Source: Methanomicrobiales archaeon (GTDB lineage: Archaea > Halobacteriota > Methanomicrobia > Methanomicrobiales > JACTUA01). Taken from it: DNA of 64,000 nt. The notes beneath the pieces were generated by a model. The model was not told the origin of the DNA, did not search any database, and saw nothing but the letters and a program-made list of their open reading frames with translations. Position numbers and translations under genes: made by a program. The stretch covers positions 264,304 to 328,303 of the forward strand of contig JACTUA010000001.1 in the NCBI GenBank assembly GCA_015660865.1. Reading direction: 5' to 3'. Position 1 is the stretch's first letter. Every line of letters starts with the position of its first letter. Below are positions 12,505 to 48,932 of this stretch, piece by piece.

Positions 12505-15420
12505 GGGAAATCAATCATGATTATAGATCACAGAAAGACGCCCAGCCCGCTCTCTGAAATCTATATATTTTCCCGAATAATCTAACATCTCGGCAAGAGT
12601 TTTTTCAAGAATCACGATTGGAACAGTTTCCAGACGATAATACCTTGCAGTGTGGGATAAATAATATATCGCCAGCAGTCTCAAATATCGCTCGCATAAT
12701 TTCTTAAGAGTACTATTTGAGGAAATAAGATCCGCTTTGGATATGAGAAAAGCCATGAATTGATCGCCCGCATCATAAACAAAATATCCAGGAGAACTTA
12801 ATTTAATATTTTTTTTCTCGTCGCCTAATTGTTTATTAAAATAATCAACTAATTCTGGATCTTCAAAAAATAATTCTTTTGCGACTAAATCATGATAATT
12901 ACTCCATTTTATTGAATCAGAAGGGCACATGTTATCAAGAGAAACTGAAAATTCGAATGGTTTAATTTCCACAACAAGACCTTTAAGATCTTGTTGCATA
13001 CGACTGAAATAACTACCTGGAGGAAGCAAAGAATCTAAAGCTGTATGCTCGATTGAATACTCCTGATGTGATAGGAAAGTCGCTAAATGATGATGTTCTA
13101 TGGAATTTATTCCCTTTGACTTTACAGTTTCACAAAAAGAACAAACGAATTTGCGTGGCGTTTTAATGAATTGTAGATGTGGTCCGGGATCAAAAATAAT
13201 TACTTCATCGTTTTTCAATATTGGCCTGAAATTTTTAGTAATTAAATCGATATTCTCATTAAAGTATAATATTGGTAGTATATAATGAAAAACTTTTGAT
13301 GGCTGATTACTAATTGCATCATCTAACGATTTTGTACCTAATCCTTCTTTGGTGAGTACCGGATAGTTACGTTGGGCTATTAGTCTAGGGGGAATTATCG
13401 AACGCATATCCTCGGATTTTACTCCAAATGAATCAAAAAAGAATGGGTTCAAATGAGATGATAATTTGATACTTTTCTGAATTTCTGAGTCACTCGAATA
13501 ATGATCATCAACATACCTGCTGGTTACGTAGTTAAGAGAATCCCCCAAGACACTTAGAAAATTCTTATATTTTTCATTTTGGGTAAAATCTTCACGAGAA
13601 ACGGTCAAATCAACCAGATTAGATTTTAAATTTATTAAGGCAACCCATTTATTGCTATGAGCTGGAAATAGATTAAAATTCCCAATATATATTCCATGAT
13701 TTAGTACAAAGCAATTATTAGATTCAAACCGAACATCATCAAAAAGATAGAATTTGATCTCTAGATCTGGAAGCTCGGCAGAATATTGAATTCTTGGTTT
13801 GCTATGATCGAACCCTGTTTTTATATCTTTGTCGATTATGGCAACAATTTCAGGGGTATCATAGTCCCAATTCTGACGTAATACTTCTGATTCTCCTGTT
13901 TCAATATTTTTAATCGAAATCGGGATTTCAATTTCTTTTGCATAGTGTTTTAATGAATCAATAATATCTAGTTTCTTTCCTTTCTCGTCCAAAATAATAG
14001 TTATTTCAGTACCCGAATTCCGTTTAGCACCTTCCACATAGGTCCAACCTTCCGCAAGGTCCATAATGCAAAATCTACTTGGAGAGCAATTTTCTTTTTT
14101 CGTATTAACTATCAATTTATTCGCAATCATAAAACAGGAAAGAACACCAATTCCGAATTTGCTAATCGGATCAAAATCTCTTCCTCTAAGTACATCCTTA
14201 AAATTTTTTGATGTATAAAAACTACTACCTTTTTTCGAGAAAAAATCAAATGCATCCTCAAAACTCATTCCAATACCATTATCTTTAAAGGTAATGCTCT
14301 CTTTGTTAAATTCAATTTCAATTAACGGTTTATAACTACTTTCAATAACTTTTCTGAACCTACATGTATCTACCGAATTCTGGAGTAATTCGCGAATCAC
14401 GACGTCATCTCTTGAGTAGAGCGAACGCCCTATCAAAAGATTAACAATCATCTTTCGGTCGAGCTCGAAGCCTATCGGTTTATTGATAAAACCACGAGTC
14501 TCAATTTGAGTCTCAATAATGTCCAAAACAACCAAATTAGATGCCAAAATTGTTTTGACAGAATCTAATTGTTTCTGGATCTGTTTTTTGACCCCCTCGA
14601 TTACTTGAACGCCTTTTGGTGAATACGCTACACAATTTAATACGATTTTATACGGATAGTGATCGGGTTGCCCAATCCCTTGAATTAATAGATGTTTTTT
14701 AAAGGCCTCTTCCGATGCACCTTCAGGTCTTAAGTTATAATAAATTATTTCTGGAGTCCTGTTTGCCGTTACGTCACATTCATCTGCTATACGAAGTAAT
14801 GATGCAAGAAATGAAATGCGAATAGAAATGTTACTTCCTAAAAATTGATTTCTATATTCAGGGCCAAGAAGGTCCTCCTCTCGGTGTCCCTTGCATATTC
14901 TCCCTATTATTCTTGCTTCGGATTGGGATAGGTGTAATTTATCATAAAATTTTTCAAAATTTTCTTCTGTTCGGATATGATGTAATTTTCTTACTTCTTC
15001 TTCATTCTCTCTTTCCGAAGCGACCATTCCCCAGTCATGGAACCACGCTGCAATAATAATAAAAAAAAGCTCATATTCGTTCATTTTAGATTTAATATCA
15101 TCTGGAATGAGCCAATTTAAGTTCTCTTCAACATTTTGACTGTGTAAAAAAAAGTGTGGAGTGTAATAGGGGAACTTAGCTGCAGTATAAGGTAAAATAG
15201 CTTTAGCAATTTCCTCGATAGGTTTCAATCTTCCGTATATTGTTTCGTTCTTATCCTTGAGAGTGTTTTGTAATGACTTTGCGTAAGACATATGTTGCCC
15301 AATTTTTATTATGCCAATACGAGGTTTAAAACATTCGGCTGAAATTTAACATAGATTTTCCGAATCCTTTAAAGGGATTGAAAAATTCAAGGCAGTAAAT
15401 TATTTCATTCAGATTATTCA
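12505..15420. other. AT-rich island holding one large gene
   Basis: From just after the flavin-reductase stop to the permease stop the base composition switches sharply from GC-rich to AT-rich, with many runs of A and T and codons such as AAT, ATA and TTA that neighbours avoid. It holds one gene (12511-15291) and about 125 AT-rich bases upstream with a minus-strand TATA-like GTTTTAAA (15332-15325). The boundaries coincide with the stop codons of two convergent host genes. No integrase, transposase, terminal repeat or tRNA is seen. Recent horizontal acquisition is the likely explanation. Confidence 0.8.
12511..15291 (-). CDS. HD-domain + Hsp90-like (GHKL) ATPase fusion, candidate conflict/defence protein
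   Basis: A 926-residue protein. Residues 40-200 form an HD phosphohydrolase-like domain: His50, the HD pair in AAWFHDWGM (85-86), His136 in CKGHREED and acidic LRIADECD (168-173). Residues 270-620 are an Hsp90-like GHKL ATPase: VIRELLQNSVDTC (N box, Asn305), FKDNGIGMSFED (G1), FGIGVLSCFM (G2) and SGTEITIIL (last box), all intact, followed by a middle domain with VDLTVSREDF. The C-terminal third includes VCSFC and EHHHLATFLSH, a possible zinc site, and is not recognised. The Hsp90-type residues suggest ATP-gated conformational change; the HD part may cleave a nucleotide or nucleic acid. Similar HD-HATPase fusions are known from predicted prokaryotic conflict systems. Composition indicates transfer. 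Confidence 0.8.
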   Translation of the reverse strand: MSYAKSLQNTLKDKNETIYGRLKPIEEIAKAILPYTAAKFPYYTPHFFLHSQNVEENLNWLIPDDIKSKMNEYELFFIIIAAWFHDWGMVASERENEEEVRKLHHIRTEENFEKFYDKLHLSQSEARIIGRICKGHREEDLLGPEYRNQFLGSNISIRISFLASLLRIADECDVTANRTPEIIYYNLRPEGASEEAFKKHLLIQGIGQPDHYPYKIVLNCVAYSPKGVQVIEGVKKQIQKQLDSVKTILASNLVVLDIIETQIETRGFINKPIGFELDRKMIVNLLIGRSLYSRDDVVIRELLQNSVDTCRFRKVIESSYKPLIEIEFNKESITFKDNGIGMSFEDAFDFFSKKGSSFYTSKNFKDVLRGRDFDPISKFGIGVLSCFMIANKLIVNTKKENCSPSRFCIMDLAEGWTYVEGAKRNSGTEITIILDEKGKKLDIIDSLKHYAKEIEIPISIKNIETGESEVLRQNWDYDTPEIVAIIDKDIKTGFDHSKPRIQYSAELPDLEIKFYLFDDVRFESNNCFVLNHGIYIGNFNLFPAHSNKWVALINLKSNLVDLTVSREDFTQNEKYKNFLSVLGDSLNYVTSRYVDDHYSSDSEIQKSIKLSSHLNPFFFDSFGVKSEDMRSIIPPRLIAQRNYPVLTKEGLGTKSLDDAISNQPSKVFHYILPILYFNENIDLITKNFRPILKNDEVIIFDPGPHLQFIKTPRKFVCSFCETVKSKGINSIEHHHLATFLSHQEYSIEHTALDSLLPPGSYFSRMQQDLKGLVVEIKPFEFSVSLDNMCPSDSIKWSNYHDLVAKELFFEDPELVDYFNKQLGDEKKNIKLSSPGYFVYDAGDQFMAFLISKADLISSNSTLKKLCERYLRLLAIYYLSHTARYYRLETVPIVILEKTLAEMLDYSGKYIDFRERAGRLSVIYNHD

Positions 15421-16803
15421 AAAGCTCGGCTGCTCCCATGCCGTCCACCTGAACAACGCCTTCCTGAGGATGTACCACCCGGGCGGGATCAGGCACAGGC
15501 TCGAGAGGGCGAACCATGGGTTCGGGATGGAGACGAAGAGGAGAACGAGGAGAACCGGTATGATGAGCCCGAGGTAGGGGAGATAGACCTTTGCGTTGTA
15601 GAGCATGATGGACGGCGAGAGGCCGCCCACGTAGACGGTGACCGCGACCGCGTAGAAGGAGATCGAGGCAAAGGTGAGGAGGGCAGGGAGGAGGAGGGTG
15701 ACCTGGCCAGTTCCCAAACCGGCGGCGACGAGGATGGCGACCGAGACCAGGTTGAGGAGCCCGTAACTCTGGAGCTTCCCCCGGATGACGGTCCCGACCT
15801 CGACGGGCAGGAAGGCGTAGGAGGTGAAGAGATCGAACTCGGTGACCCAGTTGTAGATGGTGGAGGAGATCACCCCAAGGAGGATGGCGAAGACCATGAG
15901 CTGCGAGAGCATCGGGATAAAACGCAGGAGGATGAAGAGCGCGATCCAGATGAACATGACGGGGAAGAGGAAGGAGAAGACGACCTTCCCTGCCCCGCCC
16001 TCGCTCCGGTTCAGGTCGAGGGCATCCTTCGCGATGAGGTGGGAATCGGGCGACCAGGCGAGTATCCCCACCAGCCGGTCCAGGGTCTCGGGAAAGCGCC
16101 TCGTCTCTTCCCTGTACTCGACCTTCAGGAATCGCACCGAGATAGCGCTGGGCACGATGATGAGGACCAGGGTGGTGAGGAGAAGGAGGGGGGATGGCCT
16201 GTAGTAAAGGGCAAGGGGGGGAAGGAGGCTGATCACACCCGCGTTCACCGAATGGGCATAGAAAGCCGCACCAGCCGCCGCGGCGACGAGGATCCCGAGG
16301 AGGGTGCGGGGAGAATGCACATAGATGGTCGAGAGGAGGAAGACGAAGGAGAGGCCGAGGAGGAACGAGAGGGAGAGGGTCGCGAGCATGCGTATGACCG
16401 ACAGGATGGGGAGACCGATAAAGGGCGCGGCGAAGGCGAGGCCAGCGACGAAGGGGAAGACCCAGAAGAAGAGGTAGTAGACCGTGTCCTTGAGGAAGAA
16501 GTTGAGGAGGATGGCCTGCTCGGAGACCGGGAGGCTCCGTGACGAGTACGCGATCATGGACGCCTGCCCGAACCTGCGGTTCATCACCTCGCGGCCGAAG
16601 AGCCCGAACCCCCCGACGCTCGCCCCGGCAAGGAGGTAGCAGGAGTGGATGAGGATGACCGCGGTCTGCGCCGGGAGGACATCGGAGAAGAACGGCCAGA
16701 AGAGGGCCCCTGCGGTGGCGAAGAAGACGAGGAGCAGGGGGAAGAGGGCGAACCCGGCGGACCCGAAGAGCGTCGAGTGGACCCGCCACTCCTCCTTGAG
16801 CAT
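15418..16803 (-). CDS. ABC transporter permease, multi-pass
   Basis: Integral membrane protein of about 461 residues with roughly 12 hydrophobic segments, including GFALFPLLLVFFATAGALF near the N-terminus and LIIPVLLVLLFVSIP near the end. It is the partner of the ATPase immediately upstream on the same strand, forming an ABC-2 type exporter of unknown substrate. I start it at ATG 16803 (MLKEEWRVHS), because the longer frame upstream translates a 54-base tandem repeat into an 18-residue repeat that is unlikely to be part of the protein. The gene ends exactly where the AT-rich island begins. An overlapping ORF in another frame reaching 15326 is a shadow. Confidence 0.82.
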   Translation of the reverse strand: MLKEEWRVHSTLFGSAGFALFPLLLVFFATAGALFWPFFSDVLPAQTAVILIHSCYLLAGASVGGFGLFGREVMNRRFGQASMIAYSSRSLPVSEQAILLNFFLKDTVYYLFFWVFPFVAGLAFAAPFIGLPILSVIRMLATLSLSFLLGLSFVFLLSTIYVHSPRTLLGILVAAAAGAAFYAHSVNAGVISLLPPLALYYRPSPLLLLTTLVLIIVPSAISVRFLKVEYREETRRFPETLDRLVGILAWSPDSHLIAKDALDLNRSEGGAGKVVFSFLFPVMFIWIALFILLRFIPMLSQLMVFAILLGVISSTIYNWVTEFDLFTSYAFLPVEVGTVIRGKLQSYGLLNLVSVAILVAAGLGTGQVTLLLPALLTFASISFYAVAVTVYVGGLSPSIMLYNAKVYLPYLGLIIPVLLVLLFVSIPNPWFALSSLCLIPPGWYILRKALFRWTAWEQPSF

Positions 16804-16812
16804 CGCGGTGAA

Positions 16813-16920
16813 GATCGTGTTCGTGGGAACACGATTCGAGAGGATCCCTGAAAGTGATCTTCGAGGGATCGTGTTTATGGGAACACGATTCGAGAAGATC
16901 CCCGATGGGGATCTTCGAGG
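16813..16920. repeat. 54-bp tandem repeat (two units) with hairpins
   Basis: Two units, 16813-16866 and 16867-16920, with a few differences, between the ABC ATPase and permease genes. Each unit holds a perfect 8-bp stem ATCGTGTT/AACACGAT with a 6-base loop (CGTGGG in unit 1, TATGGG in unit 2) and a second stem ending in GATCTT. In unit 2 this is a perfect 9-bp AAGATCCCC/GGGGATCTT with loop GAT. Stems are kept while loops vary, as expected for selected RNA or DNA structure. Confidence 0.85.
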
Positions 16921-16924
16921 GATC

Positions 16925-17650
16925 TCAAGCATGGGGATCCCCGCGGACTGCGTCGAGGAAGAACTCCTCCAGGTGCTTCGACGAGGATCTTATCTCCGCA
17001 ACCGGCCCCTCGCGGATGAGGTTCCCCTGATGGATGATCCCAATCCTCGTGCAGATCTCCTCGGCGATCTCGAGAATGTGGGTGGAGAGGAAGACCGTCC
17101 CCCCGCCCTTCACATATTCGGTGAGGTAGTTCTTGATCTTGCGCTGCATGATGGGGTCGAGGTTGATCAAAGGCTCGTCGATGAGCACGAGCCCTGGCTT
17201 GTGGAGGAAGGCCTGGGCGACCATGAGCTTCTGCCGGGTGCCCCTCGAGAGGTCCTTGCAGAGCACGTCCCTCTTGTCGCCGAACTCCAGGAAGTCGAAC
17301 CAGAAGCCGCACTGGCTCTCGATGTCCGCTATCCGGCGGATATGCCCCACGAAATGGAGGTACTCCTCGGCCGTGAGGAACGAGGGCGGGGTCTCCTGCT
17401 CAGGTGTGATCCCCACAAGCTCGCGAACCCTGACGGGTTGTGCAACTGCATCCAGCCCCATGACCCGGACCTCGCCGGACGTAGGCTTCAGCTGGCCGGT
17501 GAGGCACTTGATCATGGTCGTCTTCCCCGACCCGTTTGGGCCGAGAAGGCCGAAGAGCTCCCCCTTCTGAACCGAGAGCGAGATGTTGTTCACGGCGGTT
17601 ACATCGCCGAATGTCCTGGTGAGCCCCTTCACATCGATGATGATCTCCAT
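16925..17650 (-). CDS. ABC transporter ATP-binding protein
   Basis: Cytoplasmic ATPase of 241 residues that drives the adjacent permease. Walker A is GPNGSGKTTMI (about 38-48), the Q-loop region is ITPEQE, the signature is the variant DLSRGTRQKLM, and Walker B is GLVLIDEPLINLD followed by the switch STHILE. I chose ATG 17650 (MEIIIDVKGL), preceded by GAGGGGGT; a longer frame to 17740 translates GC-rich hairpin DNA. Two hairpins in the leader (17662-17707) and the tandem repeat after the gene make this operon unusually structured. Confidence 0.9.
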   Translation of the reverse strand: MEIIIDVKGLTRTFGDVTAVNNISLSVQKGELFGLLGPNGSGKTTMIKCLTGQLKPTSGEVRVMGLDAVAQPVRVRELVGITPEQETPPSFLTAEEYLHFVGHIRRIADIESQCGFWFDFLEFGDKRDVLCKDLSRGTRQKLMVAQAFLHKPGLVLIDEPLINLDPIMQRKIKNYLTEYVKGGGTVFLSTHILEIAEEICTRIGIIHQGNLIREGPVAEIRSSSKHLEEFFLDAVRGDPHA

Positions 17651-17661
17651 ATTACCCCCTC

Positions 17662-17707
17662 GGGCAGGCCTTGCCGGCCCGCCCTCTTGGGCCAGCCCTG
17701 ATGGCCC
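17662..17707 (-). repeat. Two GC-rich hairpins in the ABC operon leader
   Basis: On the minus strand, transcribed towards the ATPase, GGGCCA-N7-TGGCCC (17707-17689) is followed by a 9-bp stem GGGCGGGCC/GGCCTGCCC with loop GGCAA (17684-17662), with a single G-U pair. The second stem ends 11 bases before the start codon at 17650, so it could affect ribosome access. Confidence 0.55.
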
Positions 17708-17828
17708 GGCCCACATTCTCCGGTAGCCCCTCCCCCGCAATAAGGGTATATGCGGAGAATGAGGGAAATTGCGGTCCCCCGAGCCTGAAAAATGGCTTTA
17801 ATACCTCGCCCTCCCATCCCTCTAGTGG

Positions 17829-18314
17829 ATGAGGACGAACAGGCACCAGTATTTCCTGGATCTCGCGCTCCGGTGCGCTCACCAGGGTACCTGTCTCCGG
17901 CGCAACTTCGGGGCCATCATCGTCGACCAGTACAACACCATTGTTTCCACGGGATACACGGGTGCCCCGCGGCAGCAGAAGGACTGCACCGAGATCCAGA
18001 GGTGTTGGCGAAAAGAGCACAACATCCCCTCGGGCTCGAACTACGAGAGGTGCCGGAGCGTCCACGCCGAGATGAACGCACTCATCCAGGCGGGGAAGCA
18101 GGCACGGGGGTGTATCCTTTACCTCGCCGGTTATGATGTTGAGACCGAGGATCTCACGAAGATCTGGCCCTGCTTCCTCTGCTCAAAGATGCTCGTGAAC
18201 AGCAGTGTCATGAAAATCGTGATGAGGACAGGACCGGCCGAGTATATCGAGATGGACCCGGAGGCTCTCTACCAGATGAGGAGCAGGGAGGCTCTTGGAG
18301 AGGACGAGGATTAA
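17829..18314 (+). CDS. dCMP deaminase-family protein
   Basis: Zinc-dependent cytidine/deoxycytidylate deaminase fold of 161 residues. The catalytic motif is CRSVHAEMNALIQAG (His zinc ligand and catalytic Glu in HAE) and PCFLCSKM gives the two cysteine ligands (PCXXC). GYTGAPRQQKDC is a stretch shared with dCMP deaminases. It would convert dCMP to dUMP for thymidylate synthesis. TATA-like TTTAATAC at 17797-17804 places transcription at about the start codon, so the mRNA is probably leaderless. Confidence 0.9.
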   Translation: MRTNRHQYFLDLALRCAHQGTCLRRNFGAIIVDQYNTIVSTGYTGAPRQQKDCTEIQRCWRKEHNIPSGSNYERCRSVHAEMNALIQAGKQARGCILYLAGYDVETEDLTKIWPCFLCSKMLVNSSVMKIVMRTGPAEYIEMDPEALYQMRSREALGEDED

Positions 18315-25795: not shown

Positions 25796-26803
25796 TTACC
25801 CCTGCTCCTCGATGAGGGTCTTTGAGATGATGTACTCACCCCGCGCGGTCCTCGTGGTGCCCACCACAAGCCAGAGCTCGCCCCCGTGCTCTTCGAGTAC
25901 CCCGCACGCCTCCACTGTTTCGCCGGGGAGGGCCTGGCCGCTGTAGGTGTGGGTGAAGGAGATTATCCGGCTCACCTCTTCGTGATCTACCTCATAGCTG
26001 GCAGGGTTGTCGAAAGAGAAGGAAGCATCGATCACCCTGGCCTCGAGGGTCTTTCTTCCTAGCTTCTCCCCCCGAGGTGACGGCGACGCATCCAGGTTAT
26101 CGTAAGACCGGGTATAGAGGAGGTCGAAGTACGTCCCCCGGATCTCTCCCCTGTTCAGCTTCCTCCGTTCATGGAGGAGAAAGACCTCGAAGGGGATCTC
26201 GGGGTCCCGCTTGTTGTAGACAGCTCTCCACATCCCCGGGGAGAGATCACTCACCTGCCCCCTTTCAATCGCCTGGCGAAGGATCTCCCTTGCGGTGAAG
26301 AAGGCCCGGCCGTAGACGACAAGGTCGATGTCCGAGACCGGAGATTCGATGCCGCAGAGCCTTGAACCGGTGCAACCGAGAGACCCCTCATGGAGAGAGA
26401 AGAGGTCTGCAAGCACACCGACTCGGCTGTCCCTGGCGGTACAGAAGGCGAGCCTCTCTTCAGGTTTGTAGACCCGGGGAATATCCACAAGGGGGATACG
26501 GAGGAGTTCACCCAGGTAGGCGGGTTTCTCCTTCCTGATCAGGCTGAAAGACTCCTCGAAATCGATCTTCCGGTAGCAGACCCCCTCTGGGTTCACCCTG
26601 TCGCCGGAGGGATCCGGGACATAGCGGAGGATGCAGCCTGCCCGCTCGGAGTTGTCATAGGCCGAGACCGCGTAGATCCAGCCGTCGCGGTCCTCGATGA
26701 AGTCGCGGGGGCGAAGGGGCTTTACTCTCCCCCGCCCTGATCCCTTCTCGCGCCCCTCCCACCCTGACCCTTTCACGCGCCCCCCTCGCCCTGATCCCCT
26801 CAC
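25796..26803 (-). CDS. Predicted nucleotidyltransferase
   Basis: A 335-residue protein with a DNA polymerase beta-type nucleotidyltransferase motif CTGSRLCGIESPVSDIDLVV (about 147-166; GS followed by D-x-D), plus a C-terminal beta-rich domain. It resembles archaeal stand-alone predicted nucleotidyltransferases of unknown target. The first 27 residues are a 9-residue Gly/Arg-rich repeat (GSGRGGRVK, GSGWEGREK, GSGRGRVKP) encoded by 27-base tandem repeats. The start is GTG 26803, overlapping the tsaC stop by four bases (GTGA), which implies translational coupling. A GTG at codon 10 is an alternative. Confidence 0.72.
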   Translation of the reverse strand: MRGSGRGGRVKGSGWEGREKGSGRGRVKPLRPRDFIEDRDGWIYAVSAYDNSERAGCILRYVPDPSGDRVNPEGVCYRKIDFEESFSLIRKEKPAYLGELLRIPLVDIPRVYKPEERLAFCTARDSRVGVLADLFSLHEGSLGCTGSRLCGIESPVSDIDLVVYGRAFFTAREILRQAIERGQVSDLSPGMWRAVYNKRDPEIPFEVFLLHERRKLNRGEIRGTYFDLLYTRSYDNLDASPSPRGEKLGRKTLEARVIDASFSFDNPASYEVDHEEVSRIISFTHTYSGQALPGETVEACGVLEEHGGELWLVVGTTRTARGEYIISKTLIEEQG

Positions 26804-26806
26804 ACG
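26726..26806. repeat. 27-bp tandem repeat, three units
   Basis: Three imperfect C-rich units of 27 bases, each containing CCCTGAxCCC, start the nucleotidyltransferase coding region and touch the tsaC stop. The period is nine codons, so expansion or contraction keeps the frame and varies a basic, glycine-rich N-terminal tail. Confidence 0.75.
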
Positions 26807-27387
26807 CCCCCCCCTCTCTGCTCGCGGAGGTAGATGTCAATCTCTTCCGCAAGGGTGCCCCTGCGAAGGATCCTTCCCTCTCCCAGGTCCACAACGGTAC
26901 TCGGGACGCCCTTCAGGGACCCGCCGTCCACGAGGAGGTCGTACGGGACCCGGATCTCCCCGGGGCTCACCGGGTCCTTCTCACCGGAGATATTGGCGCT
27001 CGTGGCGGTGATGGGGGAGTCGAGGCCGCGGATGATATCAAGGGCAAGATCATGGGCCGGGATCCGGACCCCGATCCTCCCAGTCCCCACGGTGAGGAGG
27101 TCCGGGATGCAGGACCGCGATTCAAGGATGACGGTGACGGGGCCCGGGAGGAACCGGCCGATGAAGTCCAGGGAGAAGTCATCCACCCGGGCGATGGCGC
27201 AGAGCATCTCGGTATCCGAGACCGCGACCGAGATCGGCTTTCCCACGGGGCGCATCTTCGCCTCATACACGCGGAGGACGGCATCGTCGGAGAACGCATC
27301 CCCACCGAGCCCGTAGACCGTGTCCGTGGGGTAGACGATGATCCCGTCCCGTCGGAGGACCTGCACGGCCCGTTCCACGATATCCAT
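26800..27387 (-). CDS. tsaC: Threonylcarbamoyl-AMP synthase (TsaC/Sua5/YrdC)
   Basis: YrdC-fold enzyme of 195 residues that makes threonylcarbamoyl-AMP from threonine, bicarbonate and ATP, the first step of tRNA t6A37 synthesis. Motifs: IVYPTDTVYGLGGDA (about 17-31), KMRPVGKPISVAV, FLPGPVTVIL, GRIGVRIPAH and SANISGEKDP. It lacks the C-terminal Sua5 domain, so it is the short TsaC form. It directly follows the ACT-domain gene (TAGATG junction). KEOPS subunit Pcc1, which acts in the second step, is at 31600. Confidence 0.92.
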   Translation of the reverse strand: MDIVERAVQVLRRDGIIVYPTDTVYGLGGDAFSDDAVLRVYEAKMRPVGKPISVAVSDTEMLCAIARVDDFSLDFIGRFLPGPVTVILESRSCIPDLLTVGTGRIGVRIPAHDLALDIIRGLDSPITATSANISGEKDPVSPGEIRVPYDLLVDGGSLKGVPSTVVDLGEGRILRRGTLAEEIDIYLREQRGGGV

Positions 27388-33332: not shown

Positions 33333-33995
33333 ATGGTAAAGAAGAGTCAGATTGGAAGAAAGGTTGAGGGATGGAAGGCGAAGGGCTGGTACAAGATCCA
33401 TGTCCCCGAGATCTTTGGCAAGACCTACATCGGCGATACGATCTCGAACGACCCGGCCACCGTGGAAGGAAGGATCCTCCAGACCACCCTCGGTGAGATC
33501 ATACAGGACTACACGAAGCAGCATATCAAGATCCGGGTGAAGGTCACGAGCGTCACCGGCGATGCCGCCTACACGGAGTTCGTGGGGCATGAGCTGACCC
33601 GTGACTACATGCGTTCCATGGTGAAGCGGCGCACCTCCCGGATCGATACCATCCTTCCCATCAAGACAAAGGATGGGAAGATCCTCCGGATCACGATGAC
33701 CTGTCTCACCCTGACGAGGGCGAACCTCTCCCAGGTGCATGCTATCCGCTCGGCGATGACCCAGTTCATCACGTCCTATGCAGCCTCGAGGGAGTTCGCG
33801 GCCTTCGTAAAAGAGATGGTCTCCGGAGAGATCACGAAGGAGCTCTTCAAGCTCGTGAAGCCCATCTACCCGCTGCGCCGGGTCGAGATCATCAAGTCCC
33901 GGGTCGAGCCCGAGGTGAAGGCCGAAGAGAAGGCAGAGGAGCCCGGCCCCGAGGAGAAGGCAGAGGAGACGGCAGAGGTCCCGGCCCCGGCGTAA
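33333..33995 (+). CDS. rps3ae: 30S ribosomal protein S3Ae (eS1)
   Basis: A 220-residue small-subunit protein. Signatures: VEGWKAKGWYKIHVPEIF, then IGDTISNDPATVEGR and KTKDGKILRITMTCLTL. The C-terminal 30 residues are Glu/Ala/Pro-rich (EEKAEEPGPEEKAEE), an archaeal extension. Start ATG 33333 follows AGAAGGTG. Last gene of the rps15 operon, followed by T-rich sequence. Confidence 0.95.
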   Translation: MVKKSQIGRKVEGWKAKGWYKIHVPEIFGKTYIGDTISNDPATVEGRILQTTLGEIIQDYTKQHIKIRVKVTSVTGDAAYTEFVGHELTRDYMRSMVKRRTSRIDTILPIKTKDGKILRITMTCLTLTRANLSQVHAIRSAMTQFITSYAASREFAAFVKEMVSGEITKELFKLVKPIYPLRRVEIIKSRVEPEVKAEEKAEEPGPEEKAEETAEVPAPA

Positions 33996-48171: not shown

Positions 48172-48428
48172 GTGACCCTGAAGGGTTCACCGCTTGGGTT
48201 ATATAAAGTCGTGCCGGAGGGTTAAAAAAGTATCAATTGGGTGACGGGGAGGACTCACATGTCCTCTACTTTGGCGGAACCCTATGGGTTCCCGCCAGTC
48301 GAAGACCTACTGGTCCTCGACCTTCGTGAAACCCTTCGGGTTTCACTCTGGTGTCAGACCATTATTGGTCTTCCACCTGGTGGCGACTTCTGGTTGCTCA
48401 CCAGTCGAAGATCCTACTGATCTTCGAC
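48172..48428. repeat. Hairpin array between spt5 and rpl11 (eight stem-loops)
   Basis: Eight stem-loops in 257 bases: 48172-48190 (GTGACCCTGAAGGGTTCAC), 48249-48266 (GAGGAC/GTCCTC), 48273-48296 (GGCGGAACCC/GGGTTCCCGCC), 48298-48321 (GTCGA-GACC/GGTC-TCGAC), 48326-48346 (GTGAAACCC/GGGTTTCAC, loop TTC), 48356-48371 (AGACCA/TGGTCT), 48377-48404 (CTGGTG/CACCAG), 48404-48428 (10-bp GTCGAAGATC/GATCTTCGAC). The last includes the spt5 stop codon in its loop. Several share flanks (GTCGA, TACT, TTC loops), which suggests tandem duplication with stem-preserving changes. Confidence 0.85.
48200..48207 (-). promoter_or_regulatory. rpl11 promoter TATA box
   Basis: TTTATATA on the minus strand, a perfect consensus. 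Transcription should start near 48175, leaving about 20 bases before ATG 48156. The start site falls inside the hairpin at 48172-48190. Confidence 0.65.
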
Positions 48429-48932
48429 CTTCTCCACAACCCGCACATGGTCGCCCCGCACCGTGATGGGGATGGGGACCACAGACTCGTAGAGCTCCAC
48501 CGTGATCTCCTCCTTCCCCATGTCCACCCTCTTCACGACGGCCTTCTCCCCCTTGAACGGGCCGGCGATGAGCTCGACGATCGTTCCCTCGTCGATCCCG
48601 CTCACCACGGGCTTCGGCACCAGGAAGTGGGCCACCTCCTCGAGCTTGGTCTCGCCCTTCACCACAGCGCGCGCATGGGGGATCATCTCGACCAGCTGCT
48701 CGATCCGCGCATGGCTCTCAGGGGTCTCCACGAGCACGTAGCCGCGGAGCTCGTCGGGTACAATGATCGCGACCACCTTGATATCGGTCTGGGTCTCCAC
48801 CGCCTTCTTGATGCTGTCGGCCACCGCCCGCTCCTGCTTTGCAGTGGTCTTGATCGCAAAGATGCGGTTCCCCGCTGTCGCGGGGTTCTCCATCATCACG
48901 GGGGTCTCCGGGGGCTTTGCCTCGTCGGTCAT
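48414..48932 (-). CDS. spt5: Transcription elongation factor Spt5 (NusG)
   Basis: A 172-residue elongation factor that clamps RNA polymerase. The NGN domain begins [19 protein letters not shown] and the KOW domain follows ([20 protein letters not shown]). An extra 20-residue N-terminal tail ([12 protein letters not shown]) precedes it. Start ATG 48932 is 13 bases after secE. A second short ATG at codon 13 is possible. The stop codon lies in the loop of the last hairpin of the array downstream. Confidence 0.95.

Follow-up and report, generated by a model that had tools for sequence, protein, structure and literature searches.

The 64-kb stretch of DNA analysed here (the window) carries, at positions 16813-16920, two head-to-tail 54-bp units which we interpret as a lineage-specific, in-frame insertion near the 5' end of an ABC permease gene. 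The inserted DNA would belong to a propagating palindromic repeat of Methanomicrobiales that is tolerated in frame, with the window copy included as a probable member; to this reading as a whole, family included, we assign a probability of roughly 0.7. Most known palindromic elements inserted in frame come from Rickettsia and Wolbachia, and a single report concerns an archaeon. If the reading is true, the elements described below offer a natural system for palindrome spread, arm complementarity and the gain of protein repeat segments.

The tandem repeat itself, identified by TRF, is real as the earlier sequence-only reading had it: there are two units, 87% identical to each other. Each is composed of two hairpins, which on the minus (coding) strand come in the order a, then b. 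The stem of hairpin b is, as also claimed, intact in both units, and hairpin a of U2 carries the family motif TCGAAGAT...ATCTTCTC. One inner stem pair, C-G to T-A, is altered on both sides between U1 and U2. The second stem had been said to change from a G-U to an A-T pair. As the genes lie on the minus strand, this G-U is an A.C mismatch in the transcript, and since there is one further mismatch in U1 the second stem of this unit is decayed and not compensated. Compared with shuffled sequences, the 108 nt fold with a z score of -6.3 on the minus strand and -7.0 on the plus strand. Perfect hairpins with a stem of at least 9 bp number ten in the window, two of them in the 54-bp repeat, whereas five simulated sequences had between 1 and 6 each.

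Table. Features of the repeat locus and of related insertions and spacers (window coordinates unless a contig or locus is named).
Feature	Position	Strand	Remarks
ABC permease gene	15418..16932	-	504 codons; 36-codon insert between codons 4 and 5
ABC ATPase gene	16925..17653	-	stop overlaps permease start (ATGCTTGA)
Insert peptide stretch			PRRSPSGIFSNRVP
Unit U1, second in transcript	16813..16866	-	18 codons PRRSLSGILSNRVPTNTI; TRF
U1 hairpin a	16840..16862	-	decayed; two mismatches, transcribed strand
U1 hairpin b	16814..16835	-	9-bp stem ATCGTGTTC / GAACACGAT
Unit U2, first in transcript	16867..16920	-	18 codons PRRSPSGIFSNRVPINTI; TRF
U2 hairpin a	16894..16916	-	10-bp stem GAAGATCCCC / GGGGATCTTC, loop ATC
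U2 hairpin b	16868..16889	-	stem ATCGTGTT / AACACGAT; family-like in structure, not sequence
nnrD insert	C5		two 63-bp units in frame, read as VVGRKPALPVFSTTGHSNERP and VVGRKPASGVFSTTGHFNERP, then VVLLKGPVDV
tRNA-Cys/5S spacer b-a-b hairpins	L160 601-716; L178 232-383; L180 1466-1554

The repeat had been placed between the ATPase and the permease genes, which is wrong, both units being within the permease reading frame. This frame opens at the overlap with the ATPase stop codon and reads through both units; the insert has no stop codon and its length, 108 bp, is divisible by three. The conserved permease body begins at Met 16803, and the N-terminus reads MLEI-[2 x 18 residues]-FTAMLKEEW here and M-x-[DE]-[LI]-F-x-x-M...EEW in relatives. 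The junction was compared in 77 of the 80 permease loci fetched from public genomes, the other three being too truncated. A start codon exactly seven codons before the shared Met is kept in 68 of the 77 (ATG in 52, GTG in 16) and overlaps the upstream TGA in 63 of these 68, while the remaining nine have starts at other in-frame positions nearby. None of the 77 junctions contains the 36-codon insert. In the 65% relative the sequence ATG CTT GAT CTG TTC GTC GCG ATG corresponds codon by codon to ATG CTT GAG ATC [108 bp] TTC ACC GCG ATG of the window. Likewise, none of four aligned orthologues has the insert; for one of them, L033, the start was set at an upstream TTG, and a short extension of unrelated sequence is present there. 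The insert would be translated as part of the permease. Its codon log-odds are lower than those of all 167 true-frame segments tested, with a reference set that took in one low-GC gene. Such odd codon usage is as expected if the insert is young or foreign, and the negative coding signature argues against long residence as coding DNA. Close relatives of the permease (L070, L081, L125 and L128) are found in bins labelled Jingweiarchaeum, Aenigmatarchaeota and Nanohalarchaeota, due either to gene transfer or to mis-binned contigs.

Plain sequence searches do not reveal copies. The sequence-only reading had proposed a genome-wide search for the 54-mer, and by DNA search no second copy was found in the own genome (1.94 Mb, 9 contigs), nor any in the 232 genomes searched across the order. 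The own genome gives 30 short non-self matches, compared to 22 for a control of native permease coding sequence, which is chance level; the best of them covers 34 bp at 82% identity in a putative RNA polymerase subunit gene (read from sequence). A reversed-sequence control gave 0 matches and was judged unfair, because CTAG, the reverse of GATC, is rare in such genomes. The exact pattern of hairpin b occurs in 3 of the 232 genomes, with different loops in the two others. Exact hairpin patterns gave 0 hits in the genome_contigs and 0 in the viral_contigs collections, which may omit the own genome.

A family becomes evident once structure is considered. The discovery pattern GAAGATCN{3,10}GATCTTC matches seven sites in the own genome, two of which proved to lie within a larger repeat, that of the family. 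One is in an array flanked by a cbiT-like gene and aspS (gene names read from translations), the other in a unit between tRNA-Cys and 5S rRNA. The family unit is 59-64 bp long and is composed of hairpin a, TCGAARAT...ATYTTCTCC, followed by hairpin b, usually GACYGGCC...GCCCRGTC with a C.C mismatch. In five units from two other loci 11 of 21 pairs are altered on both sides, a value reached in 0 of 500 shuffles, and 95% of the cells pair; with nine units it is 12 of 21 pairs, again against 0 of 500 shuffles. From the five units, leaving out those of the window, model R1 was built, which on the own genome gives eight matches at E <=0.001, all at C3, C9 and C5; E values from 3e-17 to 3e-8 are seen at the array of four units (C3), at C9 and at the tandem pair (C5). 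Among the weaker matches, that at C4:144924 (E 0.002) does not have the usual hairpin b and was excluded from both R1 and the second model, R2; the GAAGATC hairpins at C2, C4:13088 and C9:252771 all failed to fall below E 1 with R1. Two of the R1 units (L156 and L160) were first found via the arms of the window copy, and R2 was built for this reason. It is composed of nine units, five from the own genome and four from the other species of the genus, and excludes the window units and any unit with both GAAGATC and GATCTTC; C3a and C9 were deliberately omitted, and the G138, G139 and G073 rows of alignment A9 were dropped since their hairpin b is unalignable. The members of R2 were still reached through L156 and L160.

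No Rfam family was found over the window units (16600-17900) or over the family units in L156, L160, L167, L171, L176-L180, L189 and L193. A literature search, with most subscription papers outside its reach, found no paper on this Methanomicrobiales family, and the covarying double-hairpin family is probably previously unlisted. In L171 (G000:C4), tandem repeats of about 50 bp with TCGAAGAARGAYTAA are present at 1500-1700, at the 3' end of the gene for a HEAT-repeat protein, whose stop codon is located at the hairpin loop.

Membership of the window units in this family relies on the structure models and not on a genome-wide E value, as in the genome-wide R1 search they did not reach E 1. In the 64-kb window R1 ranks them first (E 0.01) and fourth, and R2 ranks U2 first (16882-16919, minus strand, 22.7 bits, E 0.0016) and U1 second (16810-16865, minus strand, 15.7 bits, E 0.06). 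The R2 matches start at 16919 and 16865, which are the exact unit starts, 54 bases apart. The best R2 score in the permease loci of relatives (52.7 kb, 10 of the 80 loci) is 15.5 bits compared with 22.7 here, while other family members score 48-86 bits against the 22.7 and 15.7 of the window units. The sequence in common is hairpin a alone. The stem of hairpin b has no mismatch and the GACYGGCC...GCCCRGTC trait with its C.C mismatch is absent, a trait which is not universal in the family, as it differs in G138 too. The window units do present the hairpin a motif and then hairpin b, in tandem and in one orientation. Taken together, statistical support that the window copy is a member of the double-hairpin family is strong, short of certainty, and we regard membership as very likely.

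The second in-frame case is the C5 pair, located inside the gene for NAD(P)H-hydrate dehydratase, nnrD (match to TIGR00196). The blocks flanking the insert are 64 residues apart, against 23 in the solved homologue TM0922 (2ax3), a difference close to 42. The permease and nnrD inserts have identical strand and frame relative to the motif (CGA ARA...). Short direct repeats border both, GATC in the permease and GTCGTC in nnrD, which could represent either target duplication or chance microhomology. Of the other traits expected of a miniature inverted-repeat transposable element (MITE), terminal inverted repeats and a transposase were not encountered, and movement between strains was not observed either. 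By BLASTP the two insert peptides fail to align with each other.

At E 0.001, R1 matches at least 14 of the order's 232 genomes, spread over 4 of 40 genera; the filters were stricter in this search, which makes the count a lower bound. R1 matches the genus's other genome four times, and three of these matches, divided between contig ends, apparently fall in the cbiT-aspS spacer again. Six genomes of another family (G052, G056, G057, G059, G071 and G073) have the match between tRNA and 5S rRNA, as does the own genome, and hairpins in the order b-a-b make up the tRNA-Cys to 5S rRNA spacer in seven genomes from two families; G073 has one a-b copy more. In the rRNA operon it is the strand opposite to the motif that is transcribed, while in both coding inserts the motif is on the coding strand. 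Reading-frame inspection of seven further loci in other genomes yielded no convincing coding copy; in L187 a family unit overlaps the 3' end of a 224-codon frame. One family copy is therefore fixed in place in the rRNA operon across families and others are scattered. A tentative extension, which we consider possible but doubtful, is that the rRNA-operon module (b-a-b) is the ancestral home of the family, and that in one genus it was dispersed, doubled and inserted in frame, its arms being kept complementary at the DNA level and not by selection on RNA.

As to mechanism, copies may spread within the genome as palindromes and units may multiply head to tail. Those in genes would survive only if the unit length can be divided by three and the site tolerates them, the tolerant site here being presumably the short N-terminal leader of the permease. 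Copying or correction of the arms may act at the level of DNA, arm-templated correction being an example that would also yield covariation without selection. The rRNA-spacer and aspS copies, contrary to what free mobility predicts, are fixed in place across species.

It could be argued that the 108 nt act as an intercistronic RNA, with permease translation starting at the inner Met 16803 and the hairpin leader tuning the expression or stability of the second gene. This would fit the strong folding, the poor codon usage of the insert and the fact that L033, at least, has no ATG or GTG at the overlap and needs the inner Met or the upstream TTG. We consider it unlikely, given that the upstream start and M-x-[DE]-[LI]-F are kept in the large majority of relatives, that the frame stays open for 36 insert codons, and that a second tandem copy is in frame within nnrD, where a leader role is impossible. 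The pairs of the family helices point in the same direction. In an RNA under selection G-U is expected well above A-C on its own strand, but the 189 helix cells of nine units (alignment A10) comprise 169 Watson-Crick, 5 G-U, 6 A-C and 9 other, so that G-U does not exceed A-C and neither strand looks like an RNA under selection. This favours a palindrome copied or corrected at the DNA level over a selected RNA, on the basis of nine related units, which is few. We infer that the copies move as DNA palindromes rather than act as RNA.

A chance palindrome that was duplicated in tandem at this one place, with no tie to a family, would account for the lack of another 54-mer by DNA search or exact hairpin pattern and for the rarity of the b-hairpin pattern within the order. 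This is more difficult to reconcile with R2 ranking both units at the top of the window and precisely at unit starts, and with nnrD showing the same architecture, strand, frame and doubling. Nor do the flanks appear to be the source of the insert: among 1059 other window segments, 9% align to U2 as well as the junction does, and 54% to U1. We therefore judge such a duplication improbable. More improbable still is the original proposal of an intergenic repeat family that includes the hairpins at 48404-48428 and 17662-17707. The GAAGATC arms claimed as common are indeed present at 48404, and both sites are stacked hairpins low in the R2 list. However, the window holds 30 copies of GAAGATC and 32 of GATCTTC, the seven GAAGATC/GATCTTC hairpins of the own genome compare with about 3.6 expected (own arithmetic), close to chance level, and R2 gives only E 0.94 for 48404-48455 and E 0.38 for 17659-17714, the latter having no second genome copy (best other E 0.42). 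In addition, the 48404 hairpin overlaps the end of the nusG reading frame and the 16813 element lies in a coding sequence. What holds of the scattered hairpin family is that a covarying double-hairpin family exists in which the window units score, while the 54-mer is alone, coding and not intergenic, and its named siblings are weak. Finally, programmed ribosomal bypass of the mitochondrial byp or T4 gene 60 type, with hairpins hopped between matching ATC codons at the unit ends, can practically be discounted. Compared with the known features of byp, matching ATC codons do flank each unit and the hairpin insert is within a coding region, but such codons follow from any tandem repeat, and bypass is superfluous for an insert which is in frame and stop-free.

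The closest systems to an in-frame insertion of a palindromic repeat are the Rickettsia palindromic elements (RPE) and similar repeats of Wolbachia, palindromic DNA described in frame in unrelated protein genes (PMC10969869, PMC2996958); RPEs are given as about 150 bp, with 44 counted in one genome (PMC10969869). The likeness is the in-frame palindromic insertion into unrelated protein genes, here the permease and nnrD. Set against these descriptions, the present elements belong to an archaeon, occupy about five loci and are built of double-hairpin units, 54-64 bp long and arranged in tandem; their stems covary strongly, and the copy in the rRNA spacer is conserved. Palindromic coding repeats of Methanocaldococcus jannaschii (Suyama, Lathe, Bork 2005, as cited in PMC2996958) are, by description, likewise palindromic with coding potential in a methanogenic archaeon, although of a different order. 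PARCEL repeats are reported as tandem coding repeats with DNA dyad symmetry and a 25-residue amphipathic motif in proteins of unknown function (PMC2996958), while here an ABC permease carries repeats of 18 residues and a metabolic repair enzyme repeats of 21; the 25-residue repeat (DUF285 / TIGR02167) was not found, the permease (504 aa) having no Pfam family at E 0.001. Tandem repeats in Borg ORFs, an archaeal system, also have unit lengths divisible by three (PMC9879509). They are near perfect and, in the part of that source drawn on here, not described as palindromic (PMC9879509), whereas the present units are 87% alike and palindromic.

Some further features of the window are listed here. 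The region 48246-48450, between nusG and the L11 gene, contains stacked hairpins with weak R1 and R2 matches and holds an apparent second copy of the nusG 3' end (AAGGTCGA[AG]GA[TC]CAGTAGG...TCTTCG). At 17659-17714, upstream of the ATPase gene, there are two GC-rich hairpins, one with an inner mismatch like family hairpin b. Other tandem repeats are found at 26729-26814 (period 27) and 33909-33989 (period 39), both periods being multiples of three. The 926-codon gene at 12511-15291 (minus strand), with HD-CE and HATPase domains, coincides with a GC dip at 12-15 kb and has a GC3 of 0.28, against 0.77-0.91 in the other nine genes compared; it was probably acquired and is possibly a conflict or defence gene, with only weak PADLOC matches to restriction enzymes.
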